Below are positions 15,172 to 42,523 of a stretch of DNA of 64,000 bases, piece after piece (the first letter of the stretch is position 1; the number at the start of each line of letters is the position of its first letter). The stretch comes from Physcia stellaris (taxonomy: Eukaryota; Ascomycota; Lecanoromycetes; Caliciales; Physciaceae): assembly GCA_018902385.1 (NCBI GenBank), contig JABSSW010000002.1:1178001-1242000 (forward strand). The letters run 5' to 3'. The notes below the pieces were generated by a model that searched no databases, was not told the origin of the DNA, and worked only from the letters and a program-made list of their open reading frames with translations. The position numbers and the translations under genes were made by a program.

Positions 15172-17973
15172 TCAGGAAGTTAGTTGTCGTCCCTTTTCTC
15201 GGGGTTTCTTAAAGGCTGCTATGAGCCTGTTGACCTGATCTGGACCTGACCGAGGACCTAACCAACGTTCGATATATTCGAAAGCGACGTCACTTTGGAC
15301 TCCGTAGTATCCAACAGGTATATCGTCTTCAGGGTCGGCACCGTAAGATATCAATAGCTCCGTAAAATCGACAAGTGCTTCCCGCCTCATCTCAAGCTCC
15401 GAGCCATGATCAATATCACGGTCAGCTCCTCTGAGATAGTGAAGGTATCTCAGTAGTAACCTCCACCTTGGTGGCTTCGTGTAAAATCCTCTCCCAAGTC
15501 CAGCCTCTGGCTGTGCACCAGCCTCAAAGATGGACCGGACAAGACTAATTCGAACCCGCAATTCGTCGACCGGCTCAAGATCAAATTTGGAATACTTAGA
15601 TTGAGCGGCCATTATAAGCAGAAGCTGCCTGTTATCTTTGGTTACTAATTCTGGATCGAGCTGTATTTTTTGGTGGACGTAAAAGAATAGACCATGAGAA
15701 AGTGCCCACCAAAGGAAATTTTCAAGAAACCAACGGTACGACTTGATCTTGGAACCGCCATCTTTTTCGTTTAGTGATTTCTGGCACTTTTTGATGTCTT
15801 CGTTGAAGTCATCAATGAGGTCGTACGATATCATGTCTCTGTTCTTTTCTAGGCAACGGAAATATCTTCCGATTTGGCGCCATTCAATCTCCAATCTCTC
15901 CGGTACAAATGGATCATCGAAGGACGATAGCGGCATTGTCTTGATCCAGAACCGGAGACATGTGCATACACACACCGAAGGATTGAAGGGTCCTTCAACC
16001 CACGTAGCTAATTGACTTTTTACCGAGGCTGCCTCAAGAAAATCTTTCACGGTTGAGTGTAGGAAATCAACGCGATAAAGGGAACGTGCTTCTCTTGCGG
16101 GTCCATACGTTTCTCTTTGTACCTTTGCGGATGAGTCGAGCTTAATCTCCAGGAAGTCTCTGCATCGGGCATGAATCTGTTTCTTCATAGTTTCGTTCAT
16201 TCGCTCAGCCCAATCGCCATCATAAACTCCTTGGTTTGTGTCAAGGTTATCGTCTGTCACGTGTGACAATGCAGCCTGGAGTGAGATTAACGGCAACGGT
16301 TCCCTTGCACATAGCATAGTCTTCAGCAGCCGTGCAGTATCCTTCCGATAAGCCGGCGAAATTTCGTCCAGTACGCGCTGGAAGTACGACTCAAGATCGG
16401 GTGGAAGTTCGGCGACTCGTTTTTCTAGGATGGTTATGTCGTCGTCGTTCTGCAGACCTTCGAGCAAAGAACGAACAACAAGAAAGACCCATAAGAATAC
16501 GCCTTGAGCCTTACTTACTATCCGAGCTATGAGATCCATATATCTTACATCATGCACTATTCGACCAAGTCTTTTTTGCTGTTACTCAACTTATCAAGAA
16601 TATACTGCGAGATGTCGCCTTTTGTGAGGTCGTGAACCTTAAGCGCATGACGTCCGTCGCCATAAAGAGCTTTCTCGAAAATAGGCCATGGCCTACTTGA
16701 AAGACAAATCTTGATATTTGTTGCTTCGCTGCTGGATTGGAACAGGCTCAATAAGTCAGCTTTGTCTCCATCATACTCATCTAAGCCATCGACAAAGAGG
16801 CAAATACGCATTGAAGCTGTGATGTCAGGACTAGATATCTGCAAAACATTTTGGAAAACTTCGCGCAAATCTTTCAATGACCAGGGCTGCGGATCGCCCA
16901 AGTCGACCATTTCCTGTAGCTTTTTCGAGCACACGAATGATATCAGGGACGGGCACTGCCTTAGTATATCGTGAAGTAATGACTGCAGAAGCCCATCTTG
17001 AGACTTCTGCTTTTCGGTCCCTGCAGCCCAGAAGAAGTGACTTGCGATTACAAGCTGTTTATTGGGTCCAGTCCAGGCTCTAAGTGCGTCCTTTGTACGT
17101 TCCTCTTCGTACAGGAATTTCATGAGCGTTGATTTCCCAGACCCTGCTTTGCCCGATATCCAGTAAATACCGGCAGTAGACGTCGACTGCAACCATTCAT
17201 GGAAGTGTATCTCTGGGCTCTCATAAATCCACTGGAATGTTCTAATGTGTGCCTCCGGAATACGTGATTGTCGTGTGCTCATTTGATCGAACGCCAAACT
17301 CCTTAAGATCGGTTTGACTTCGCCATCCTTGACCAATGTTTCCAGCCGCATTGAAAGTTCTTTAAGAATTTCGGGATAGGTACTGCGTGATTCTGGAGAT
17401 TTCATTGCTTCGAGTATTTCGTGTTTGACCTCTTCCATCTTTTCCTGGGTCTCATGTGCAGCTTTTCGCACCAAAAAGGATAGATTAGATTGTGGGTCGC
17501 TAGAAATGTCGAAAATGTCAGCTTTCTCCTATGATGTAGAAGAATGTGTGGTGTCTCTACTTAGTCTCTGCAAGCATGTGGAGACTCAGAGCCTGTTGCA
17601 GGCTATTGATGTCTTCTCGGATTGATTTGATACGCGGGCCTTTCCTTATCGTGCGGACAGCGGGCAGAACCACATCGAAGCATCGGCGACGGTCTCGAAC
17701 TCTGAGGTCTCGAAGTAGTGAGAGAAGCTCGGTAGCAGCGCGGTCTTGCATTTGGGCAAGATCTTGGATAGATTGATTCTGCGGGCGGTCTTTTCTCAAC
17801 TTCATGCTTAACTCGCGAGTGTGAGACGCGACTGTTTCAAGCTCTCGGTGCGCCGACAGAACGCCATCTGCTGATCTCGACAATTCTGAGGTGGTCACTA
17901 CCAATCTAGAGGCAATGTCAACGAAGGTGGCTATACTACTCGCCAGGCCAATCGCAGTAATAGGATCGAGCAT
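15172..17973 (-). CDS. NACHT-domain STAND receptor (NLR-like), no C-terminal repeats
   Basis: Exon 1 is 17973-17561, intron 17560-17500 (61 nt, GTAGAG...CTGAC...TCTAG, phase 2), exon 2 17499-15172; about 914 aa. I start at 17973 because MLDPITAIGLASSIATFVD is the usual start of the fungal HeLo-like/STAND N-terminal domain. Next come a coiled segment, then the NACHT domain with Walker A GKAGSGKST, Walker B CLFVDGLDEYDG and a CLSSRPWP sensor-like motif. A winged-helix-like/DUF7791 region (KAQGVFLWVFLVVRSLL, LPPDLESYF) follows. A one-base frame offset occurs at about 16557-16580 near a T6 run (plus strand 16572-16577), splitting two otherwise continuous family segments. The C-terminus has only an ankyrin-like trace (LLISYGADPE). 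Such proteins trigger heterokaryon incompatibility or defence cell death. Confidence 0.82.
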
Positions 17974-25862: not shown

Positions 25863-26807
25863 GGTGATACCTTTCCTTTTTTTTGCGGTTCACATGATTA
25901 GGACATGCACGTTACTGATGTAAATGGAGTTCGTGATATCGCTTTTTCTATAATGAGTTATATTGACGGGTCGCTTGATGATGTTCGGCCTGTGCTGATG
26001 CAGGGAAAGCGCATGGATGCCCAACCGCCAATGGAAATGCTCGAGCCTTCTGCTCGTGATATTGCAGACGTCCGCCCGTTGTTTTTTCTCATCTTCAAAA
26101 TTGTGTGTCTCCCGCTCATCCGTTCCTGAAAGATCGTTTCATGGTCATATCAACTCCATAGCCCGATCGAGTTGAATAGATGAGTTAGACGACGATGCTA
26201 CCGCCCAGCAGAGCTCAGGTGGGTATTTCTTGCATATGCGGTGCTTGCTGACCAGGTCAACCACTAAAGTCTATACAGAAGTCTCCAGGGGCATTAGCTA
26301 TGTTGACGGGTCGCTTAACGATGGACGTGTACAAAGCGGTAGGAAATTCCGTGTTTCTCAAGAAACACGGGAACCATGCAGTCATTATACCGGGCCAAAC
26401 TGCTTTGCTCGAGACAACGGCCGATGTTACTATTAGAAGTTCTGATATTGTCGTAACCCTTCCGAACCGGGCACGGCATCACTAACCGCCAACAGTCACG
26501 AATCGACGCCCATGAGCATTTGTTGCGTCCCGAGACCATGATTTGCGACAAGTGCCCACTCGGAATGAGTAAACAGAGAGGGTCTCGTCCAAGCATAATT
26601 TTTCAACGAGTAGCCTCACGTTCTGGGCATCGGTATCTAGTGTGGATTCAATCGGAAAAGTCTTGAAACAAGTGTGACTGGTGGCATTCAAGCGAGGCGC
26701 TAAACTAGCCACAGTGGCTGAAACCCATTTAACCCAGTACAAGAATGATTTTCTAGCGTGAAGAGCACGGCTTGCGAATAAACCTTATTTCGAGACAGTC
26801 TATTCCG
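25863..26807. other. Non-coding, includes a dispersed repeat copy
   Basis: No gene seen. Most of 25985-26305 is a diverged copy of sequence at 47105-47625 (listed separately). The phrase TTGACGGGTCGCTT occurs twice (near 25963 and 26303), so the copy is flanked by or contains a short direct repeat. Confidence 0.5.
25985..26305. repeat. Dispersed repeat, copy 1
   Basis: Shares long collinear similarity with 47105-47625: for example GATATTGCAGACG(T/G)CCGCCC, ATATCAACTCCATAGCCCGA, and GGCATTAGC near the end (AGCATTAGC in copy 2). This copy lacks the inverted-repeat insertion found in copy 2 and is AT-richer. Origin and class are unknown; there is no coding capacity. Confidence 0.65.
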
Positions 26808-26812
26808 TATTC

Positions 26813-27049
26813 TGTTACGAGCATGCCTGGCAGATAGATCTGACAGATAGATAGTTGATATGATAGATGATTAGACAGATATGTCTGAATCGAATTATGT
26901 TTTAATTCTCTGACGAGATTAACGTGATTTGGGATTTGACGCTCGCACATTGTTTACAATTTTATCATTTTGTACATATTTGTTTCTGCAAATTTATTAT
27001 TTTCGTTTAGTTAATCAATAATACGTTTATTCAAACACGATTCATGATA
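26813..27049 (+). repeat. 5' LTR of fossil A
   Basis: 237 bp; the least mutated of the four LTRs here. It still carries CpC, CpT and GpG steps lost from its partner at 40007. Confidence 0.9.
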
Positions 27050-30000
27050 TTACAATAAATTTTCAATTTTTATCGTTCGTCGAAATACGCGAACGCTCAA
27101 AAATAAAATCTCAAATCGATCAAATTTTTTTGACGAAACAAACGACGAAAAGTTTTGTTGATCAAACAAATGATTTGAAATTTTTTTTGACGAAACAACG
27201 ACGAAATTTTCGACGATAAAAAACGAAAATTGATTCGATTAATTTTTTTTTTTTTTATCATTTTCAATTTTTTATTTTCAATTATGATTCGAAATCATCA
27301 CGAAACAATTTTTTCGAATTTTCTATTTCGATGAAACAACGTTTCAGAACGTTACGCGTCAAATCGAATCGTATGTTGCACAAAATTAACGACAATTTTT
27401 TTGACGAAAATTTCGTTAATCAATTTAAACGTCGTCGATTTGTATCAACGAATCAACGATCGATTTCATAAAAATGAAAAATAAAAAAATCATTCATTTT
27501 TTGAATATCGTCATCATCGATCAATTGAAGTAATAAATCAATCATAAAATCGTCGATTTTTTAAAGAAATTTGATCGATTACGCATCGATTGTAACAACT
27601 ATTTGAACGTTTTGACTCAATATCAGAATTTGTACAATATTGTCAACGTTGATCGTGACGAATTGATCAATACGAATGTCGAATTAAATGAAATTCGTCG
27701 AGAATTGAATATTTTGAAAAACGAATACGAAAAACAACGTGATTTATTTTTGATCAAGCAAAAAAATTACATTTTTTTGAAAAAAAATCACGACGTTTTG
27801 CTGATCAAAATTCGCGATCGTGCACGAAATTCGAACGTCGACGATGAAAAAAACGACGATAAAATCAACGTAATTAATTTTTTTCAAAAAAATAAACGAC
27901 GTTTCAAAATACACTCAAATTTTTTTAAATTCATCGATGAAATAAAACTCATTTGACGTGTTTGAAAAACAAAAATACACGATAAAATGACGATCAACGT
28001 TGATTATTACGACACGAACATGATCGCAATCATTATTATGATTGATTAAATTGAAAATGATATCGATAATCACATACAATCGATTCGTGATATTGATATG
28101 AATCATTTCAAAATTTGACATATGATGTTGAAATTTTTGAACATTATTTACGAAAATTTTGATTTCAAACGCAATATGCGTAATCAATTTCGAACATTGA
28201 TCATGAATATTCAAAATTTTCAATTTTTTATTTCAATTTTTTCGCTTTAGCAATTCAATTGATTATAGCGAAATCATCAAAATCGAAAAATTGATAAACA
28301 AAATTTTCTGAAATTTGAAAAAAACGATGAATGTATATTCACGTGAATTTATCACGTTCGACGAAATTCGAATCATTTTGCAACAAATATACAATCGACA
28401 ATCGAATTTTCGAAAAGAAAAAATCGCGACACGTCAACAACGTTTTGAATTGTTTCAATTCAAATCAATTTTTGTCGTCTCGATTTCGATGTTTTTTACG
28501 AAATTTGTCATTTCGATTTTTTTCGTGAAATTTACAATTCATTTATATTTCAACGTTGAAATCAAAATTCGTGATTCGATGATCGACAAATTGATCGTCA
28601 CGAACAAATGTTTCACATGTGACGAATTGAATCACGTTTGAAAAAAATGTTCGAACGATCACAAACATCAAAAACGTCATTGACACAAAATGCAAATATC
28701 GTACATGAATTTAATCGTCGAATCGAATAATTCTGATTCGAAAAATTAACAATTCACATCAAAAACGCGATTGATGAATGTTTAAAAAAATTTTTTATTC
28801 ATAACGATAATTTGTTTGATTTTTTCATCAAACGATTTTTAATTATCAATTGTACGTTATCATTCAACGATAATAAACATAAATTAGAAATTTTAATAAA
28901 CATTGATGCAATTGATTATGCATTCATTGATAAAAAAATCGCGCAATTTGTATGCAACATGCTGAACATGAAATTCGTATTTTTATTGAAATCGAAATCA
29001 TTGATTGAATTCGACGATCGTCAAATTTTTTCAATAATTCATGTCATATATTTTAAATTAACGATAAAATTGCATTTCGAATTGATCGTTTTTTTGTTAA
29101 TCATCGATTTGAATAATCATTCGATAATTTTAAAAAAATCGTGAATAAACAAACATAAAATCATATTGAACATGATTTACGATAAATTGATTTTCAAATC
29201 GTTCAAATGCAATCATCATGACAATATATTTAATCAAATTGTTCAAATTCGACGTTTGAAAGTTTTCAAATCAAATCGTCGATAAAATGTATTTAATTGA
29301 CGTCGTGATATCGTGTTATCGCAAAAAAGCAATTCGAAACATATAACGATGATAAAATCTCGATATATCATTTTGTTTCGTTTCAAAATCAAATTTTTGT
29401 TTTTTACAATCGAAAATGAATCAAATGTATTCGATTCGAAATGTTTCGAATGTTCAATTCATTCGAACGTCGACGACGATAACGAGTCGTCAATCATCGA
29501 ATTAAATGATTCAAAAATTGATATCACAACAATTACGAAAACGACATTCATCAAAAAAAAAAACTTGAAAAAACAACGCAATAAACGTTGAAAAATCAAA
29601 AAACAACAATTCGAAATTTTTTTATCATCGAAATTGAATTCAAACGATTCAATGAATATCGCGATAATTGATGCAATTTTTTTTTGTTTATTCGTCGATT
29701 TCAAAAATAAAAAACAAAAAATGTAATGTTTTTTCATTACGATCAATCAAATCGATTTCGCGTTCAAAACATTGCGAGCAAATTTTGAATCGTTGAAAAT
29801 TGCTATCATGATCAAAGAAATTTTGAAACACGAACAAATCAAATCGATTTTTGAACGCATAATGAAAAAAATATTCAAATATTTTAAACATTTGTCAAAA
29901 ATATTCGATTTTCAAAAAACAATTGAATTGTCATCGCATCGATTTTACGATCACAAAATCGAATTTTTAAACGATAGCAATTCATTGTTTCGAAACAAAA

Positions 30001-31211
30001 TATATTTTTTGTTCGAATTCAAATTTCAAAAATTCAAAAAATATTTGAAAAATAATTTTCAAAAAAGTTTTATCGTATTCAATCAAATTGCATACGTTTC
30101 GTTCGTTTTATTTGCAATCAAATCAAATGATCAATTGCGTTTGTGTGTGAATTATCGACGATTTAATCACATCACGAAACGCAATCGATATTTCATTTTC
30201 TTGATCGAAAAAACTTTAATCAAAATGCAAAATTGCAAATATTTGATCAAATTGAATATTATATCGATTTTCAACAAACTTCGAATGAGTGAAAAAAGTG
30301 AAAAATTTATCACGTTCGTTATTTTTATGAAATCATACAAATATCGAATGTTATCTTTCGAATTGATCAACGAATTCGCGAATTGACAACATTACATTTA
30401 ACGATTTGTTATTCAATTTTTTGAACGATTTTTGTCAAATTTATTTAGATGATATTTTCATTTACAACAAATTCAAAAAAAAACACATCGTTCACGTTCG
30501 TAAAATATTGAAAAAATTCAAAAAAGTCGAATTACAAATGAATATTGAAAAATGCGAATTCTTTAAAAAAAAATGACATTTTTGAACGTCATATTATCGA
30601 TAGATGATTTTCGCATGAATTCGAAAAAAATAAAAATCATTGTCAATTGAAAACGTTTTACGAATCTGAAAAAAATACAAATTTTCGTGAATTTCGTCAA
30701 TTTTTACAGACGATTCATTCGTGATTTTTCGAAAAAGATTCGAATTTTCATTCGAATGATTAAAAAGTTTGTGAATTTCGAATGAATTGAAAAAATCGAA
30801 AAAGTTTTCAATTTTTTCAAAAAAACAATGACGAAAATTTTCATATTACGACATTACGATCGAACAAAACAAATCATTTTGAAAATCGATTTTTTTGATT
30901 ACGTCAATGCAAAAATATTATTTCAATACGACGACGAAAAAATGTTGCATTTCGTTGTTTTTTACAATCGCAACATGATTTCAATTGAATGCAATTACGA
31001 AATTTATGACAAAAAATTATTAATCATCATTCGTTGTTTAAAGCATTGACGTTTTGAATTCGAAAACATCGAAAAATCGATCAAAATTTTTATCGATCAC
31101 AAGAAATTGAAAATCTTCATGACGTCAAAAAAATTCATTTTTCGTCAAACTCGTTGAGTCGAAACTTTTTCGAAATTCAACATTGTCATTCAATTTCAAT
31201 TCGAAATTCAG

Positions 31212-31435
31212 TGTTACGAACATGTCTGACAGATAAATTTGACAAATAGATAGTTGATATGATATGTGATCGAACAACGAATTATGTTTTAATTTTACGT
31301 TGAAATTAACGTGATTTGAAACTTGACGTCGCACATTGTTTGCAATTTCAACATTTTGTATTTATTTGTTTTTGCAAACTTATTGTTTTCGTTTAGTTAG
31401 TCAATATTACGTCTATTCAAGCACGATTCATGATA
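31212..31435 (+). repeat. 5' LTR of fossil B
   Basis: 224 bp, TGTTACG...CATGATA. It differs from the 3' LTR at seven sites by hand alignment, all transitions at CpT/ApG steps. Confidence 0.9.
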
Positions 31436-34400
31436 TTACAATAAATTTTCAATTTTTATCGCTCGTCGTGATACGCGAACGTTCAAAAATAAAATTTCAA
31501 ATCGATTAAGTTTTTTTGACGAAACAAACGACGAAAAATTCTGCTGATCAAACAAACGATCAAAAAGTTCTTTTGACGAAACATCTGACGAAAATCGTGA
31601 AATAACAAATCGAATCTTCACGCAATCGACGATAAAAGACGAGAATTGACACGATTAATTTTTTTCTTTTTTATCGTTTTCAATTTTTCATTTTCAGTTA
31701 TGATTCGAAGTCATCACGAAACAATTTTTTTCGAATTTTTTATTTCGATGAAACAACGTTTTAAAACGTTACGTGTCAACGTGAATCGTATGTTGCATGA
31801 AATTAACGACAATTTTTTTGACGAAAGTTTCGCTGATCAATTCAAACGTCGTCGATTTGTATCAACGATCGAATTCATAAAAGTGAAAAATGACGAAGTC
31901 ATTCATTTTTTGAATATCGTCATCATCGATCAATTGAAATGATGAGTTAATCATAAAATCGTCGATTTTTTAAAAAAATTTGATCGATTACGCATCGATC
32001 GTGATAATTATTTGAACGTTTTGATTTAATATCAAAATTTGTACAATATTGTCAGCGTCGATCGTGACGAATTGATCAATACGAATGTCGAATTAAATGA
32101 AATACGTCGAAAATTGAATATTTTGAAAAACGAATACGAAAAGCAACGTGATTTACTTTTGATCAAACAAAAAAATTACATTTTTTTGAAAAAAAATCAC
32201 GACGTTTTGCTGATCAAGATTCGCGATCGTACACGAAATTTTGACGTCGACGATGAAAAAAACGACGATGAAATCAACGTAATTAATTTTTTTCAAAAAA
32301 ACAAACGACGTTTCAAAGCATATTCAAATTCTTTTAAATTCATCGATGAAGTAGAATTCATTTGACGTGTTTGAAAAACAAAAATACACGATAAAATGAC
32401 GATCAACGTTGATTATTACGACACGAACATGATCGCAATCACTATTGTGATTGACTGAATTAAAAATGATGTCGATGATCACATACAATCGATTCGTGAC
32501 ATTGATATGAATCATTTCAAAATTTGACATATGATGTTGAAATTTTTGAACATTATTTACGAAAATTCTGATTTCAAACGCAATATGCGTAATCAATTTC
32601 GAGCATTGATCATGAATATTCAGAATTTTCAATTTTTTTATTTTATCTTTTTTCGTTTTAGCAATTCAATTGATTATAACGAAGTCATCAAAATCGAAAA
32701 ATTGATGAACAAAATTTTCTGAAATCTGAAAAAAACGATGAATGTATATTCACGTGAATTCATCACGTTCGATGAAATTCGAATCATTTTGTAGCAAATA
32801 TACAATCGACAATCGAATTTTCGAAAAAAAAAAATCGCGACACGTCAACAACGTTTTGAATTGTTTCAATTCAAATCAATTTTTGTCGTTTCGATTTCGA
32901 TGTTTTTTACGAAATCTGTTATTTCGACTTTTTTCGTGAAATTTGTCGTTCATTTTCATTTCAACGTTGAAATCAAGATTCGTGACTCGATGACAAACAA
33001 ACTGATCGTCACGAACAAATGTTTCACATGCGATGAAATCGATCACGTATGAAAAAAGTGTTCGAACGCTTACAAACATCAAAAGCGTCATTGACACAAA
33101 ATGCAAATGTTTTACATGAACATGATCAACGAATCGAGCGAATTTGATTCGAAAAATTGATAATTCACATCAAAAACGCGATTGATAAATGTTTAAAAAT
33201 TTTCTTTATTCATCATGACGAATTGTTTGACTTTTTTGTCAAACGATTTTTAGTCATCAATTGTACGTTGTCATTCAACGATAATAAACATAAATTAAAA
33301 ACTTTAATAGACATTGATGCAATTGATTATGTTTTCATTGATAAAAAAATTGCGCAATTTGTATGCAACATGCTGAGCATGAATTTCGTATTTTTATTAA
33401 AATCGAAATTCATTATCGAATTCGACGATCGTCAAATTTTTTCAATAATTCATGCCATTTATTTCAAATTGACAATTGATTTGCATTTCGAATTGACAGT
33501 TTCTTTGTTCATCATCGATCTGAACAATCATTCGATAATTTTAAAAAAATCGTGAATGAACAAGCATGAAATTATTTTGAATATGATTTACGATAAATTG
33601 ATTTTCAAATCGTTCAAATGTAATCATCATGATAATATATTCATCAAAACAATGCAAATTCGACGTTTGAAAACTTCTGATTCAAATCGTCGATGAAACG
33701 TATTTAATTGACGTCGCGATGCTTTCTTATCGAAAACAAATAACGCGAAGCATATTGCTGCAATAAAATCTCGATATACGATTTTATTTCGTTCGCAATT
33801 TAATTTTTCAACGTTTTATGTACAAAACGAATCAAACGTATTCGATTCAAAATGTTTCGATTGTTTTACTCATTCGAAAATCGATCAAGATGACGAATCG
33901 TTCGTCGTTGAATCAAATCATTCAAAAATTGATATCACAGCGATTACGAAAGCGACATTCGTCAAGAAAAAAGATTTGAAAAAACAACGCAACAAGCGTT
34001 GAAAAATCAAAAAACAACAATTCGAAATTTTTTCATTTTCGAGACTGAATTCAAACGATTCGATGAATATCGCGATGATTGATGCGATTTTTTTTTGTTT
34101 ATTCGTCGACTTCAAAAATCGAAAACAAAAAATGCAATGTTTTTTCATTACGATCAATCAAATCGATTTCGCACTCAAAACATTGCGAACAAATTTTGAA
34201 TCGTTGAAGATTGTCGTCATGATCAAAGAGATTTTGAAACACGAACAAGTCAAATCGATTCTTGAACGTATAATGAAAAAAATATCGAAATATTTCAGAC
34301 ATTTGTCAAAAATATTCGATTTTCAGAAAACAATTGAATTGTCGTCGCATCGAATTTACGATCACAAAATCGAATTTCTAAGCGATAACAATACATTGTT

Positions 34401-37400
34401 TCGAAGTCGAATATATTTTTTGTTCGAATTCAAACTTCAGAAATTCAAGAAATATTTGAAAGATAATTTTCAGAAAAATTTCATCGTATTCAGTCAAACA
34501 ACATACGTTTCGTTCGTTTTATTTGCAATCAAATCAAATGATCAATTACGTTTGTGTGTGAATTATCGACGATTTAATCACATCACGAAACGCAATCGAT
34601 ATTTCATTTTCTTGATCGACGAAATTCTAGTTAAAATGCAAAGTTGCAAATATTTGATCAAACTGAATATCATATCGATTTTCAACAAGTTTCGAATGAG
34701 TGAAAAGAATGAAAAACTCATCACATTCGTTATTTTCATGAAATCGTACAAATATCGAATATTATCTTTCGAATTGATCAACGAATTCGCGAGTTGACAA
34801 CATTACATGAACGATTTACTGTTCAGCTTTCTGAACGATTTCTGTCAAGTTTATTTAGATGATATTCTCATTTACAGCAAATTCAAAAAAGAGCACATCG
34901 TTCACGTTCGTAAAATGTTGAAAAAACTCAAGAAAATCGAATTACAAATGAATATTGAGAAATGCGAGTTTTTCAAAAAGAAAATGACATTTTTGAACGT
35001 CATATTATCGATGAATGATTTTCGCATGAATTCGAAAAAAATAAAAATCATTGTCAATTGAGAACGTTTTACAAATCTGAAGAAAGTGCAAATTTTCGTG
35101 AGTTTCGTCAATTTTTACAAACGATTTATTCGTGACTTTTCGAAAAAAATTCGAATTTTCATTCGAATGATCAAAAAGTTCGTGAATTTCGAATGAATTG
35201 CTGAAATCGAAAAGATTTTCGATTTTTTCAAAAAAACGATGATCGAAATTTTCATATTACGACATTACGATCGAATCAAACAAATCATTCTGAAAACTGA
35301 CTTTTCTGATTACGTCAATGCGAAAATATTATCTCAATACGACGACGAAAAAGTTTTGCATTTCGTTGTTTTTTATAATCGCAACATGATTTCAGCCGAA
35401 TGCAATTACGAAATTTATGACAAAAAATTGCTGATTATTATTCGTTGTTTAAAACATTGACGTTTTGAATTTGAAAATATTGAAAAATCGATCAAGATTT
35501 TCATCGATCACAAAAATTTGAAAATTTTCATGACGTCAAAGAAACTAATTTCTCGTCAAGTTCGTTGAGCAGAAATTTTTTCGAAATTCAATATTGTCAT
35601 TCAATTTCAATTCGAAACTCAAAACGTTAAAGCAAATGTTTTGATTCGTATGTTTGATTCACGATCAAAAAACGATATTGACGAACGACATCAATATCGA
35701 AAGCAAATATTGTTTATTTCGAAACGATTCGAAATTCACGCGATGAAAATTGACGAATTTATTTATGAACGAGTTCTTGTTGTCAACAAAGTTGACGATG
35801 ATTGCACGATTTATCGTGAAATCATCGAGCAAAATCTCATTTCAATGAATGAAATTAATTTACGAGATTGCATTGAAAAAAACGACGTTTTGTATCGAGA
35901 AAATCGACTTTGAATGCTCGTCGATGCTTTTTTATTCGTTGATTTTTTCAAAGAAATTCATGAATTTTTTGTTTCGAAACATTCAAATTTTAATCGCATG
36001 AAAAATTTTATACGTCGCGATTATTATTGATTCAACATGCGCAAAGCGATTCGTCGATACGTACGTAATTGTCATAAATGTCAACGCACGAAGATTTTCA
36101 GAAATCGCAAAAACGATTTATTTATTTTTTTGATCATATTTTTGCAACGTTGAATCGACATATCAATGAATTTCATCATCGAATTGTTCGACGTTCACGA
36201 TCATAATGTCATATGCACGATAATTGACAGACTTAACAAAAAACGTCATTACGTGTTTTGTATCGTCAACGACGAGAATATCAATGTTGAAATCACGATC
36301 AAAATATTCATCAATTACGTATTTCGTACACATGAGTTATTCTTTTCGATAACGTTTGATCGAAATTTTCAGTTCATATCGTTCGTTTGACAGACATTCT
36401 GTCGAATTCTCGATATTAAATGTAAATTTTTCATCGCTTTTCATTCAGAAATCGATGAACAAATCGAAAGAATCAATCAAAATATCGAAAAACAATTGCG
36501 ACAATATTGTAATTACATGCAAAACGATTGAAACGTTTGATTGTTCATGATCGAATTTGCAAACAACAACGCAATATTTGCAACAACAAAACTATTTTCA
36601 TTTTTCATCAATAAAGATTTTCACTTTCGTATGAGCTTTTCATCAAATTTTATTTCGTATATTACAACGAGAAAGCGATTTCTGATCGTCAAAACAAAAA
36701 ATATTATCGACACAATGCAAAATATTTTCAATTATGTACGAAATCATGCAGAGATAATTCAGAAACGTATGACAATTCAAGTCAACAAACATCGAAAAAT
36801 CGTAAAATACGTCGAAAAAAATTTCGTTTTTTTCGATCGACGAAACATCAAAACGATCAAATCGTTTGACAAACTCGATGACAAAAAGTTAAATTTTTAC
36901 AAAATATTACAACGTATGAACAATTCATATCGATTCGAATTGCTTGAAATCATGCATATTTACGATGTGTTTCACTGTTGACTTTTGCGCAAAGATTTTC
37001 GTGATTCATTCGAAAATTAAATCAATGAATTTTTTGATTTTGTCATAGTCAACGAAAATTTCGAATGAGAAATGAACGATATTTTGAAATTTCGATATCA
37101 TTACAATCGTTTTCAATATCGTGTCAATTGATCGAATTGATCGCATGATCGAATATGATATTATGTCGACAACGAAAAATTTGATAATGTTCGCGACGTG
37201 ATGAACGATTTTCATCGCATTCATTTCATGATTGCAAATTCAAAATCGTTCAAAACGTTGATTTCAATATTTCAAAACGTCGTCAACGAATTCGATTTTT
37301 CAACGAATCGTCGTCGTTTTCGAAGAAAAATCGTCATGCTGACATTAATCGAGATTACATTCGATTAGAATTTGAAAGTTTCGAATTCAATACATTCATT

Positions 37401-37701
37401 TCGATTTCATTTTCGCAACGTTTTTGCAGTTTTTAGTTTTCGTTATCGTTTCGATGTTATTTACAGTCAAAACTTACGTCGCATGAAAAATTGAATCGTG
37501 TCAAAAACATTTTCAGAAATTGTTGTCAGATTTTATCGAGCTTTGAAGCAATAACGAAACATTTGAAGATAAAAAATGATAATCGTGAAACTTTTGAATT
37601 TTGCAAATATTCAAATCAATCAACAAAATTCTCAACAAGATTTTTCAATTTCGAAATATCAACGAATCGTCGAGACGACGCTCGCGAAGAGAAAAAAATA
37701 G

Positions 37702-37925
37702 TGTTACGAACATGTTTGACAAATAGATTTGACAAATAGATAGTTGATATGATATGTGATCGAACAACGAATTATGTTTTAATTTTACGTTGAAATTAAC
37801 GTGATTTGAAATTTGACGTCGCACATTGCTTGCAATTTCAACATTTTGTATTTATTTGTTTTTGCAAACTTATTGTTTTCGTTTAGCTAATCAATATTAC
37901 GTCTATTCAAGCACGATTCATGATA
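37702..37925 (+). repeat. 3' LTR of fossil B
   Basis: 224 bp, same length and ends as the 5' LTR. Immediately downstream the interrupted sequence of fossil A resumes. Confidence 0.9.
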
Positions 37926-40006
37926 TTCAAAACGTTAAAACAGATATTTTGATTCGTATGTTTAATTTTCGACTCAAAAACGAAATTGATGAACGACATC
38001 AATATCGAAAGCAAATATTGTTCATTTCAAAACGACTCGAAATTTACGCGATAAAATTTGACGAATTTATTTACGAACGAGTTTTGATTGTCAATAAAAT
38101 TGACGATGATTGCACGACATATCGTGAAATCATCGAACAAAATTTTACATCAATGAACGAAATCAATTTACGAAATTGCAATGAAAAAAACGATGTTTTA
38201 TATCGAAATGATCGATTATGAATGTTTGTCGACGTTTTTTTATTCGTTGATTTTTTCAAAAAAATTCATGAATTTTCGATTTCAAAACATTCAAATTTCA
38301 ATCGCATGAAAATTTTTATACGTCGCGATTATTATTGATTCAACATGCGCAAATTCGTTCGTCGATACGTACGCAATTGTCATAAATGTTAACGTACGAA
38401 AATTTTTCGAAATCGAAAAAATGATTTATTCATTTTTCTGATCATTTTTTTGCAACGTTGAATCGACATATTCATGAATTTTATCATCGAATTGTTCGAC
38501 GTTCACGATCACAACGTCATTTGCACGATAATCGACAAATTTAATAAAAAACGTCATTACGTGTTTTGCATCGTCGACGATGAAAATACAAACGCGAAAA
38601 TCACGATCAAAATATTTATCAATTACGTGTTTCGTACGCATGAGTTATTTTTCTCTATAACGTTAAATCGAGAAATTCAGTTTATATCATTCGTTTGACA
38701 AGCATTTTGCAAAATTCTCGACATCAAATGTAAATTTTTCATCGTTTTTCATTCAAAAATCGATGAACAAATCGAAAAAATCAATCAAAATATCGAAAAA
38801 CAATTGCGACAATATTGCAATTACATGCAAAACGATTAAAACGTTTAATTGTTTATGATCGAATTTGCAAACAACAACGCGATATTTGCAACAACAAAAT
38901 TATTATTATTTTTCATCAATAAGAGTTTTCATTTTCGTATGAATTTTTCATCAGATTTTATTTTATATGTTACGACGAAAAACGATTTTTGATCATCAAG
39001 ACAAAAAATATCATCGACACGATGCAAAATATTCTCAATTACGTACGAAATTATGCAGAAATGTTTCAAAAACGTATAACAATTTAAATCAACAAACATC
39101 GAAAAATCGTGAAATACGTCGAAAAAAATTTCGTTTTTTTGAATCGACGAAACATCAAAACGATCAAATCATTTGACAAACTTGATGACAAAAAATTAAA
39201 TTCGTACAAAATATTAAAACGTAAAAACAATTTTTATCGATTCGAATTGTCAAAAATCATGCGAATTTACGATGTGTTTCATTGTTGATTTTTTCGCAAA
39301 AATTTTCGTGATTTTTTCGAAAATCAAATCAATGAATTTTTCGATTTCGTCATAGTCAACGAGAATTTCGAATGAGAAATGAACGATATTTTGAAATTTC
39401 GATATCATTACAATCGTTTTCAATATCGTGTCAATTGATCAAATTGATTTCATGATCGAACGTGATATTATGTCGATAACGAAAAATTCGATAATGTTCG
39501 CGACGTGATGAACGATTTTCATCGTATTCATTTCACGACAACAAGTTCAAAATCGTTCAAAACGTTGATTTCAATATTTCAAATCGTCGTCAACGAATCA
39601 AATTTTTCAACGAATCGTCGTCGTTTTCGAAAAAAAATCGTCATGCTAACATTAATCGAAATTATTTTCGATTAACATTTGACGTTACGAATTCAATTCT
39701 TATTCATTTGTTTCTGATTTCACGATTTTTATTCAACAATTCAGTTTTTATTACTTTTTCGATGTTATTTACAGTCAGAATTTACATCGCATGAAAAACT
39801 GAATCGTGTCAAAAACATTTTCAAAAATTGTCGTCAAATTTTATCGAACGTTGAAATAACACTAAAATACTAAAAAATGAAAAATGATAATCGTGAAATT
39901 TTTGAATTTTGCAATTATACAATTTGATCAACAAAATTTTCAACAAAATTTTCAAATTTCGCAACAACAACGAATCGTCGAAACGACGCTCGCGAAAAAA
40001 AAATAA

Positions 40007-40243
40007 TGTTACGAACATGTTTGACAAATAAATTTGACAAATAAATAATTAATATGATAAATGATTAAACAAATATGTTTGAATCGAATTATGTTTTAAT
40101 TTTTTGACGAAATTAACGTGATTTGAAATTTGACGTTCGCACATTGTTTACAATTTCATCATTTTGTACATATTTGTTTTTGCAAACTTATTATTTTCGT
40201 CTAACTAATCAATAATACGTTTATTCAAACACGACTCATGATA
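40007..40243 (+). repeat. 3' LTR of fossil A
   Basis: 237 bp, equal in length to the LTR at 26813. Twenty-eight differences by hand alignment, all transitions. Confidence 0.9.
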
Positions 40244-40248
40244 TATTC

Positions 40249-40928
40249 AGTCTAAAAATTCTGAAATACGACGAAAATTTTGAAAAAATTTTCAAATCAA
40301 CTGTTTGATTATCATACAATTTATCATACAAATTGAACAATTGAATCAGAAATTGCTCAAAATTTGATAACGTTGTCACGTTGATTTCGTAACACGTTGT
40401 TTCGTTGAATTGCAAATTTCGTAATTGATTTCGTTCAATTGCAAGCTTCGTAATATATACGCTGTTTCGTTGAATTGCAAATCTCGTAATTGATTTCGTA
40501 ACACGTTGTTTCGTTGAATTGCAAGTCTCGTAATATATACGCTGTTTCGTTGCATTGCAAATTTCATACATGCGACATGCGACATGCGACGAGCTAAAAA
40601 CGACGCTAAAAGAAAAACGTTAAAAAGAATTCTTGTAAAAGATATACAGTATATGCATATTCTATTGTATGACATGCTATGTCATGTCATGTCATGTCAT
40701 GTCATGTTATGGCATATTTAGAGAATTAGAATGCTGATCTCATCAAGAGTCAATTGAGATTTGCTTGAACGAAACGCTCGATTTTTGCGATTTGAACGTA
40801 ATTGTGTGTATATTCGAACGCAAAATCATCAATGTTTCAACGTATAATCGTGTATTGTCAATAATGTGGTGTTTCGTACAACAGAGCGGTGGTGGTGGTG
40901 ACAGGCCATGAGGTGGTGGCGAAAGCTG
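40249..40928. repeat. AT-rich flank with tandem repeats and microsatellite
   Basis: The right flank of fossil A stays AT-rich to about 40860. At 40381-40570 a compound tandem repeat alternates TTGATTTCGTAACACGTTG and TAATATATACGCTGTTTCGT blocks, each followed by TTGAATTGCAA; two to three copies. Short arrays follow: ATGCGAC three times (40569-40590) and about six ATGTC units (40679-40707). No gene is seen. Confidence 0.65.
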
Positions 40929-41483
40929 TGATAGTTGGTAACCCTAACCCTATCATAGAACTCTGTTGCAATCTGCAGGCGTTTACCTTGTTTGCTAGAA
41001 CCACTATTTTTCTTTGTTCATTTCCTGCACGGAGTAACTCACATCGTTGGGCGATGTTGTCAAACCCTTCCCTCGCGAAGATCTTCTGCAATGTCTTGAT
41101 TTATCAACATACGAGCTCTGGGCCTTGCGGGCGCCAGGAAGCTCAAGATCTGGGCCCATTCAAAGCCTCCATTAAGCCGCAACCTCCCCGTCTGTGCCGA
41201 GCATGTTCTCTGGAATCCAACGAGAAAGCCGAGTAGCAAGGATGATTCCAGAATCTTCTCTCGCCGCTACTGGATCGTTCTCAACTAGTCCTTGAAGGCT
41301 ATTGTTATTTCCGCACAGTCTCACCAGGCCGAAGAACGAAAAAAGCCGAACCCTTGCTCGCATTTCTGCTTGCGCTCTGGGGGCAGAACAAGAACTGCAA
41401 GAGAAAGTAGATGGGTCGTTCTTTTTGGGGATATGGTCACAGATATGGGAAGTCGACAATTTCCTCGCTTGACCATAGCTCAA
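40929..41483 (-). pseudogene. Possible decayed coding sequence, unknown family
   Basis: Minus-strand frames in this region look coding-like but are split among frames: SLQGLVENDPVAAREDSGII, then RMLINQDIAEDLREG, then FDNIAQRCELLRAGNEQRKI. They would be collinear with small frame changes, or with introns I cannot place. No domain is recognised, so this may also be chance. It lies between the retrotransposon island and the Cys-rich gene. Confidence 0.25.
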
Positions 41484-41578
41484 GACATCACTATTATTTA
41501 GCGGTTCACTTCCAGCAGTCCATCAGGAAAATGTGTGTCTGTATTAATTAATAAATATCAGTCTGCATCGGCAGCAGC

Positions 41579-42091
41579 TTACATCACTCGGCAGTTGCAT
41601 GAAAATTCAGGTTCCACCCTCACCCAGTCGTCGTCACAGACGCCTTGACTTTCACGGAACTCCTGTAACTGACGTTCTTTCCAGTTCTGCGTCTCCAGTA
41701 CATCCTCCTCTCTTTCCAAAATCAGGAGAAGAGCGTCTTCGAAAGCCTCCTCACAGCGCGAGGTGGTCACCTCCAACCCGTCCGGATCATTCTTGTCTCG
41801 AACCGGATGTTCAAGATGCTTTCCTTCTGACTCGTTTTGGAAATCAAACACCGCTTGGATATCCGCATCTATACCTCGTATCATTTGGTCTCCAGCTTTG
41901 CAGATCTCCTTTTCGATCTTGCAATAACAGGAGCGGCAATACGTTTGTGTGCCTGGATCCGCCACCCGATTTTCCAAAATGCTGACCATGCAGCGCTCCT
42001 TGATCGCGTCGGCACCACGACTACATGGTGTGACCGATTCAGAGTTCGGATGACGGCAATCTTTATAAACAACAATCCCGTAGTAGCACAT
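41579..42091 (-). CDS. Small Cys-rich protein, unknown
   Basis: 170 aa, single exon, starting MCYYGIVVYKDC. There are two Cys/His clusters: CRHPNSESVTPC...ERC in the first 35 residues and YCRSCYC...EIC at about 52-64, suggesting a small zinc-binding N-terminus. A Glu-rich helical C-terminal half follows (CEEAFEDALLLILEREEDVLETQNW), and the end is SCNCRVM. Single-copy proteins beginning MCYY with such a Cys pattern are common in Pezizomycotina but uncharacterised. It is adjacent to two RING-like genes on the opposite strand. Confidence 0.65.
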   Translation of the reverse strand: MCYYGIVVYKDCRHPNSESVTPCSRGADAIKERCMVSILENRVADPGTQTYCRSCYCKIEKEICKAGDQMIRGIDADIQAVFDFQNESEGKHLEHPVRDKNDPDGLEVTTSRCEEAFEDALLLILEREEDVLETQNWKERQLQEFRESQGVCDDDWVRVEPEFSCNCRVM

Positions 42092-42523
42092 GGTTGGGTG
42101 ATGAGATGTAAGTTGTTGAGATGAGGTTTAGTGGTAGGACAACTCGAGTAAGATTTTAAGTCTTAGCTTGTCCCGTTCTGGAGTGATAAGTCAACTAATC
42201 ACTGGCACGTATGGTGACGTGATGCGTCCGATCTTATACGCTGACACATCCTTCAGGAATAGTGGCTTTGTTTTTGAGAACACAAACTGTTTCTTTACCA
42301 ATCCAACTTCGATCACACAGATAGCTCTTCTTTCCCTTTGAACAGTGATGTGTCTGTCATCACGAGGCCTCTATATCTATACCAACTTCTGCTATAATGA
42401 TTATTAAAACTCAGAACGCGATCCTCAAATCTTGCCTCTCGATCCGACAAACCCACTGCAACGCTTCAACAGCTTAAAACCCTAAAAACACGTCGTAAAC
42501 ATTTTTCTCATAATCAATTGGCT
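42092..42523. promoter_or_regulatory. Divergent intergenic region
   Basis: 432 bp between the Cys-rich gene (minus) and the first RING-like gene (plus). A CA/TC-rich leader (TTAAAACCCTAAAAACACG near 42475) lies before the ATG at 42524. No specific motif. Confidence 0.4.

Follow-up and report, generated by a model that had tools for sequence, protein, structure and literature searches.

Two nested LTR retrotransposons depleted in CpC and CpT

We analysed a 64,000-nucleotide stretch (the window) of the genome of the lichen-forming fungus Physcia stellaris (Physciaceae, Caliciales, Lecanoromycetes), taken from a draft that is described as a Nanopore and Illumina hybrid assembly of an axenic ascospore culture, published in 2020. 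On its plus strand, positions 26,813-40,243 form an AT-rich island that consists of one long terminal repeat (LTR) retrotransposon nested in another, and in this island cytosines followed by a pyrimidine (CpT and CpC, together CpY) are nearly gone. The outer element has 237-bp LTRs (5' LTR, 26,813-27,049; 3' LTR, 40,007-40,243) and is flanked on both sides by the target duplication TATTC (26,808-26,812 and 40,244-40,248), which makes the boundaries given in the original prediction exact. It is split by an inner element of a related subfamily (31,212-37,925, plus strand; LTRs at 31,212-31,435 and 37,702-37,925), whose target-duplication copies, TTCAG (31,207-31,211) and TTCAA (37,926-37,930), themselves differ by an ApG-to-ApA change. 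The two elements are related along their length (87.3% and 86.5% in self-alignments) with LTRs of different subfamilies, and at least 41 LTR matches were found in the genome.

The inner element carries a 264-amino-acid open stretch (34,003-34,797, plus strand) that belongs to the reverse transcriptase (RT) region, as judged from its relatives, some of which contain PF00078; it has no Pro, Gly or Trp and ends in TGA. A Pfam search of the mutated stretches gave no RT match and only a sub-threshold match to a Tf2-1-type SH3 domain, at 36,541-36,981 (plus strand). Its position downstream of the RT region would fit a Ty3/gypsy gene order, a label that we offer as a reading of the sequence and not as settled. 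The outer element was itself inserted into a member of another repeat family, the two sides of which lie at 26,724-26,800 (the left part, about 72 bp, not depleted in CpY) and 40,250-40,750 (the right part, depleted in CpY and without any CC; 54 genome matches listed).

Dinucleotides were counted from 26,900 to 40,200, with expectations derived from the island's own base composition (GC 0.281). CC was found 2 times against 285 expected and GG 2 times against 240, while CT (142 against 672) and AG (190 against 669) stood at 21-28% of expectation. CG was in 3.3-fold excess (867 against 262), CA (937 against 728) and TG (729 against 617) were above expectation, so that CpA is kept, and TA was low (667 against 1,717, a ratio of 0.39). 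In the flanks (1-26,812 and 40,244-64,000), all 16 observed-to-expected ratios were between 0.69 and 1.20. Thus, the complete counts, set against normal flanks, bear out the original prediction that CpT, CpC, ApG and GpG are nearly absent from the island and that CpA and CpG persist.

The G+C content of the repeats is reduced by nearly half and the adjacent DNA is unaffected. The shift is sharp at the 1-kb scale; at the 100-bp scale, its left edge falls inside the 5' LTR of the outer element and its right edge at about 40.8 kb, the depletion extending beyond the right end of the outer element into the other repeat family. Pairwise LTR alignment showed that the outer 130 bp or so of the 5' LTR retain CpY, and the sole two GG of the island (26,931-26,932) lie in this spared part. 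The triplet TGG occurs once per strand in the 13.3-kb island against 463 times on the plus strand of the 26.7-kb left flank. Among plus-strand frames of at least 90 amino acids, 14 of 15 end in TGA, a weak test, since 451 of all 675 stop triplets on that strand are TGA anyway; firmer evidence comes from the loss of TGG.

Mutations between repeat copies favour CpY

The two LTRs of an element start out identical when it inserts. Realignment of the outer LTR pair gave 28 differences, all transitions, with 26 at CpY and 2 at CpA, and the inner pair gave 7, all transitions at CpT, exactly the 35 transitions (33 at CpY) counted by hand in the original prediction. We also examined the other elements found by genome search that have both LTRs in the sequence examined, which brought the set to four. 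The C38 pair differs by 19 transitions (18 at CpT and 1 at CpA) and the C75 pair by 11 transitions, all at CpT, and 1 transversion. Together, the four pairs hold 65 transitions and 1 transversion, and 62 of the 65 transitions are at CpY (P of about 1e-15 against an even split of C contexts). In each pair, both LTRs still have C or G at some positions where their partner no longer does; both copies have thus been mutated.

These counts leave almost no room for an AT-rich transposon of ordinary composition or an AT-biased drift acting with no directed mutator. AT-rich elements occur in many fungi, but 65 transitions to 1 transversion, 62 of them at CpY, already contradict this explanation, as does a near-complete loss of CC (2 of 285 expected) alongside an excess of CG and next to normal DNA.

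A broader comparison used 339 alignments of repeat copies from 298 kb of sampled loci, leaving out alignments shorter than 150 bases or below 80% identity and sites with unlike neighbours. The alignments overlap and are not independent; they hold 19,523 transitions and 5,050 transversions. Between copies, differences affected 0.93 of the C sites at CpC, 0.83 at CpT, 0.13 at CpA and 0.06 at CpG. In raw numbers, there were 8,593 differences at CpT, 114 at CpC, 4,614 at CpA and 1,844 at CpG. In our reading, CpA differences are many because CpY sites are nearly exhausted and the elements carry older divergence. Tabulated by 3' neighbour, C/T differences among repeats are therefore not dominated by CpA per available site, in this 298-kb sample of the genome.

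Retention of cytosines was computed with 203 bins of unique-looking DNA as the reference. The fraction kept in the window island was 0.002 for CpC, 0.14 for CpT, 0.92 for CpA and 1.16 for CpG. The corresponding values were 0.020, 0.16, 0.87 and 1.06 in 22 partly mutated bins of the genome sample described below, and 0 (no CC against 2,014 TC), 0.010, 0.79 and 1.05 in the 17 most mutated bins. Both classes were sorted by GC and CpY share (six bins fall in no class), so their low CpY is partly by choice and their CpA and CpG figures are not; the window island and the LTR pairs were not selected by CpY. The order of loss is thus CpC > CpT >> CpA > CpG, CpC going first, then CpT, with no loss of CpG. 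CpT loss exceeds CpA loss about twentyfold in the most mutated bins (-ln retention of 4.58 and 0.24). The base on the 5' side matters little for CpT (retention of 0.15 for ACT, 0.19 for GCT and 0.12 for TCT), and CCT is retained at 0 of 137 sites because its preceding C is itself a target.

Near the end of the repeat, the pattern changes. The C or G lies in the 5' copy at 23 of the 28 differences between the outer LTRs, including all 21 in the first 130 bp. Together with the 5' LTR end of the C38 element, this suggests that mutation fades at the edge of a repeat. The spared part of the outer 5' LTR (26,813-26,943) adjoins gene-rich DNA. In the C38 element, C or G stands in the 5' LTR at 8 of 9 differences within the first 90 bp or so.

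CpY depletion goes with copy number

We sampled 20 stretches of 10 kb (200 kb) at set places on six contigs. GC was below 0.40 in 43 of the 200 1-kb bins, found in 5 of the 20 stretches. The CpY share of all C was below 0.25 in 39 of these 43 bins and below 0.10 in 29, and in none did it reach the normal value of 0.4 or more. In a table of 500-bp segments covering 396 of 400, all 70 segments with GC below 0.30 had a CpY share below 0.2 and all 307 tabulated segments with GC of 0.40 or more had one of at least 0.4. Many bins are thus close to saturation, and roughly one fifth of the DNA sampled is affected.

Genome searches with mutated islands on contigs C5, C3 and C1 listed 23, 40 and 29 matches, of which 8 or more per island were almost full-length. 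As a control, the window flank at 41,101-42,100 matched only itself in the genome and has normal CpY. CpY depletion therefore goes with copy number: the four islands searched are multicopy and the single-copy flank is spared. Within the window, AT-rich DNA outside the island is scarce; three 200-bp segments below 40% GC had a CpY share of 0.46. CpY depletion of unmutated AT-rich single-copy DNA was not encountered, in what is a weak test on three segments picked by GC alone. The repeat-directed C-to-T mutation with a 3' pyrimidine proposed in the original prediction is supported by the LTR pairs, by the mutation of both copies and by multicopy islands in all five AT-rich stretches.

Could the depletion be introduced by sequencing or polishing? 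The draft is a hybrid of Nanopore and Illumina reads, but nearly half of the G+C is lost in the repeats and not beside them, and relatives in ENA and JGI records, though some could be P. stellaris itself, show the corresponding amino acid loss (see below). An artefact is hardly credible.

Standard RIP indices are blind to the island

Repeat-induced point mutation (RIP) is commonly sought with dinucleotide indices. We applied three criteria with thresholds as printed in the retrieved part of PMC7882544 to 1-kb segments overlapping by half. Not one AT-rich segment passed any criterion (0 of 28 in the window and 0 of 84 in the sample, 0 of 112 in total); 3 of all 380 sample segments passed one criterion, and none of these was AT-rich. 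The island has a TpA/ApT of 0.38 and a substrate index of 1.37. Because the target is CpY rather than CpA, the usual RIP tests miss the mutation here, and TpA/ApT-type indices are blind to an island in which CpY depletion is evident.

Protein-level traces

The loss of CC and GG removes the codons for Pro, Gly and Trp. In the RT stretch at 34,003-34,797, none of the three residues is left and His and Gln together make up 6.4%. Pro, Gly and Trp together amounted to less than 2% in 105 of the 120 relatives listed, out of 214, to 2-5% in 13 and to more in 2; a query that is free of these residues favours similar matches, so these figures show existence and not frequency. Relatives with the same loss occur in ENA and JGI public records, and relatives poor in Pro, Gly and Trp include some that are 42-45% identical in JGI and NCBI records. 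The nearest public RT relatives may be P. stellaris or close kin, and the wider distribution is read from protein composition. Two scans for relatives of the element in viral contigs found none.

Compared with two less mutated relatives (41-46% identical), Pro was replaced by Ser or Phe in the window at 15 of 19 positions; His was kept at 3 of 9 and Gln at 2 of 9, which at such divergence says little. In another family compared with two relatives, Pro was changed to Ser, Leu or Phe at 14 of 16 positions, while His was kept at 18 of 20 and Gln at 14 of 17. By the genetic code, CpY mutation spares Gln codons and makes stops chiefly at TGG. Many reverse transcriptases in public records nearly lack Pro, Gly and Trp, a feature that could serve as a protein-level mark of CpC/GpG loss.

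RID- and DIM-2-class methyltransferase genes

A genome search for PF00145 matched four stretches in three genes, on C3, C5 and C6, all apparently intact. The C3 gene is DIM-2-like: it matches the 1,456-residue methyltransferase chain 9bap, which we take to be Neurospora DIM-2, and has a methylase domain together with a weak BAH match below threshold. The other two, RID-A (C6:791557) and RID-B (C5:499307), carry the motifs SPPCQ, E(Q/E)T and GNAVPP, which were aligned for RID-B and for the relative of RID-A from Heterodermia. The substitution of E(E/Q)T for ENV presumably marks the RID class. In a tree for which 64 proteins were selected and 13, including Heterodermia RID-B, removed because their catalytic stretch was short, RID-A falls with Heterodermia and further relatives beside Eurotiomycete DmtA-type proteins and RID-B groups with other Lecanoromycetes. 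Heterodermia carries both paralogues. The search for RID and DIM-2 genes called for by the original prediction thus returned two RID/DmtA-class genes and one DIM-2-class gene. One or two RID-class copies are described in the retrieved parts of papers on other RIP-capable fungi (PMC4352252, PMC10998396).

A probable RIP-like process with altered 3' specificity

What is the nature of the mutator? The CpY mutation works like RIP, sharing several of its features but not the usual CpA preference. C-to-T and G-to-A transitions occur on both strands. Repeats are mutated and single-copy DNA is spared (with one single-copy control, and two short or diverged repeats unmutated). Both copies are mutated in four LTR pairs, and the genome holds two RID-class genes with catalytic motifs. 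The CpA preference, which is usual but not universal, is absent, with 0.79-0.92 of CpA kept against 0-0.02 of CpC and 0.01-0.16 of CpT. Thus, we think it probable that P. stellaris has a RIP-like, repeat-directed mutation with CpY specificity, catalysed by a RID-class enzyme.

In such a process, repeats would be identified through their homology during the sexual phase. A C5-methyltransferase of the RID class, either the DmtA-like RID-A on C6 or RID-B on C5, would deaminate the C of CpY. Alternatively, the RID-class enzyme might methylate this C, with deamination to follow. In either case, the enzyme of this lineage would now recognise a pyrimidine instead of A on the 3' side, and a RID switched in this way would destroy CpC and CpT, erase Pro, Gly and Trp codons and make stops chiefly by TGG-to-TGA changes. 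We lean, by a little, towards the wider proposal that a RID-class enzyme switched here from CpA to CpY, that the same process operates in other fungi whose reverse transcriptases poor in Pro, Gly and Trp appear in public metagenomes, and that surveys based on CpA/TpA indices have overlooked it.

Several observations weigh against this explanation. CpA is partly lost (0.92, 0.87 and 0.79 kept in the window, the partly mutated and the most mutated bins, respectively) and, per site, differs between repeat copies at 2.4 times the frequency of CpG; given both, there may be a weak second activity at CpA. The original prediction that CpA persists therefore stands in that CpA is largely kept and fails in that it is not wholly immune, 21% being lost in the most mutated bins. 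Internal alignments of the outer and inner elements form the weaker side of the evidence. They show older divergence (89 and 71 transversions), and CpY accounts for no more than 163 of 349 and 68 of 190 C/T differences. We attribute these low shares to both copies having almost no CpY left to lose; when counted per available site, 0.92 and 0.82 of CpT differ, against 0.22 and 0.26 of CpA and 0.12 and 0.16 of CpG. The retention reference consists of genes and intergenic DNA, not of transposons before mutation, and the single-copy control is one flank only. Two repeats left of the island are unmutated. One is the 72-bp left part of the adjoining repeat; the other is a dispersed sequence of about 300 bp (26,001-26,298), with 24 listed relatives at 68-79% identity and no CpY depletion. 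A limit on the length or identity of a repeat would explain both cases. The sequence at 26,001-26,298 is possibly a short element or a gene-family exon escaping mutation. Finally, RID catalysis, repeat pairing and the timing in the sexual phase are parts of the explanation that we infer.

Neurospora has a second, heterochromatin-linked RIP route through DIM-2, and the DIM-2-class enzyme encoded on C3, rather than RID, could make the CpY mutations in the same way. The gene is present, with its methylase domain and weak sub-threshold BAH match. In Neurospora crosses, though, a k-mer shift required Rid1 but not Dim2, according to the retrieved part of PMC12543289. We regard the DIM-2 route as unlikely.

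An AID/APOBEC-like cytidine deaminase acting on single-stranded transposon DNA would produce C-to-T hypermutation of retroelements, which is typical of such enzymes. The neighbour that counts is the 3' base for C5-methyltransferases and the 5' base for AID/APOBEC-type deaminases. Here the preference is set by the 3' neighbour and hardly by the 5' one, CpT retention varying only between 0.12 and 0.19 across 5' A, G and T, and both strands and several repeat families are mutated, which makes such a deaminase quite improbable. APOBEC_N (PF08210) had no match in the genome, but it had none in 14 control genomes either, so that this search shows little.

The weak CpA loss might also point to two layers, an old canonical CpA-directed RIP that has since relaxed, plus another process, for example deamination of 5-methylcytosine at CpY. 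However, TpA at 0.39 of expectation and CpA above expectation indicate that a CpA phase left little trace, and we hold this scenario to be very improbable.

Comparison with known systems

Published systems are compared here as the retrieved portions of the cited papers describe them. RIP in Neurospora crassa likewise makes C-to-T changes on both strands, in repeats and in both copies, in a genome with RID- and DIM-2-class genes. Its order of preference is CpA>CpT>CpG>CpC, as cited in PMC5496416, whereas in P. stellaris CpC is the most mutated and CpA is nearly spared. In one tool paper, CpT changes exceed CpA changes in Tad1 copies (PMC2621366), and the CpT-to-TpT form was dominant in alignments of known RIP-capable fungi (PMC7882544). 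CpT is a main target in Magnaporthe oryzae, Botrytis cinerea and Sclerotinia sclerotiorum (PMC4352252), leading in M. oryzae and B. cinerea T4, and also in Anisogramma anomala (PMC10998396). For Sclerotinia, a sentence citing Clutterbuck (2011) states that CpA and CpG were mutated more than CpY. These systems resemble P. stellaris in targeting CpT and in their RID-class genes (two in Anisogramma). Unlike P. stellaris, they mutate CpA too; TpA rises in Anisogramma repeats and falls in the P. stellaris island, and the word CpC is absent from both PMC4352252 and PMC10998396.

Trichoderma reesei RIP also departs from the Neurospora preference, in the opposite sense to P. stellaris, favouring CpA and CpG with CpC least (PMC5496416). 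In Monacrosporium haptotylum repeats, CpA is not lowered and the authors suggest a different dinucleotide preference; unlike in P. stellaris, TpA is high, TpG is low and the TpA/ApT index passes (1.12; PMC3828140). RIP-like mutation in Basidiomycota is also C-to-T outside CpA, but it is aimed at CpG (PMC4352252, PMC4014442), the dinucleotide that P. stellaris leaves untouched (1.05-1.16 kept), so the CpG loss expected of deamination of 5-methylcytosine at CpG is absent. Among lichen fungi, Endocarpon pusillum has RIP with repeats that pass the CpA/TpA indices (1.47 and 0.70; PMC3897900), unlike those of P. stellaris. Cladonia rangiformis has RIP, strong AT-rich islands and RID and DIM-2 homologues, and the words CpA, CpT, CpG and dinucleotide are absent from the paper on it (PMC12542154).

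The PMC papers searched, among which most subscription journals are missing, yielded no account of RIP in which CpA is spared and CpC hit. A 2025 survey of 1,239 fungal species states that RIP-like defences share a CpA preference (PMC12543289). The unusual specificity claimed in the original prediction is therefore new in that CpC is lost and CpA spared and is not new as regards CpT, since CpT-rich RIP alongside CpA was already known (PMC2621366, PMC7882544, PMC4352252, PMC10998396). A reversed preference, carried almost to saturation, would demonstrate that RIP is able to alter its 3' specificity, and with it the damage done, CpY mutation leaving Gln codons and making stops chiefly at TGG. 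To our knowledge, how RID chooses its cytosine is not known; natural RID variants would allow the 3' specificity of RIP to be mapped.

Outside the island, a gene with a DUF7791 domain (PF25053) lies at 15,175-16,581 of the window, where its neighbours include genes for a CFEM protein, RING-finger proteins, a glycosyltransferase and a cytochrome P450.

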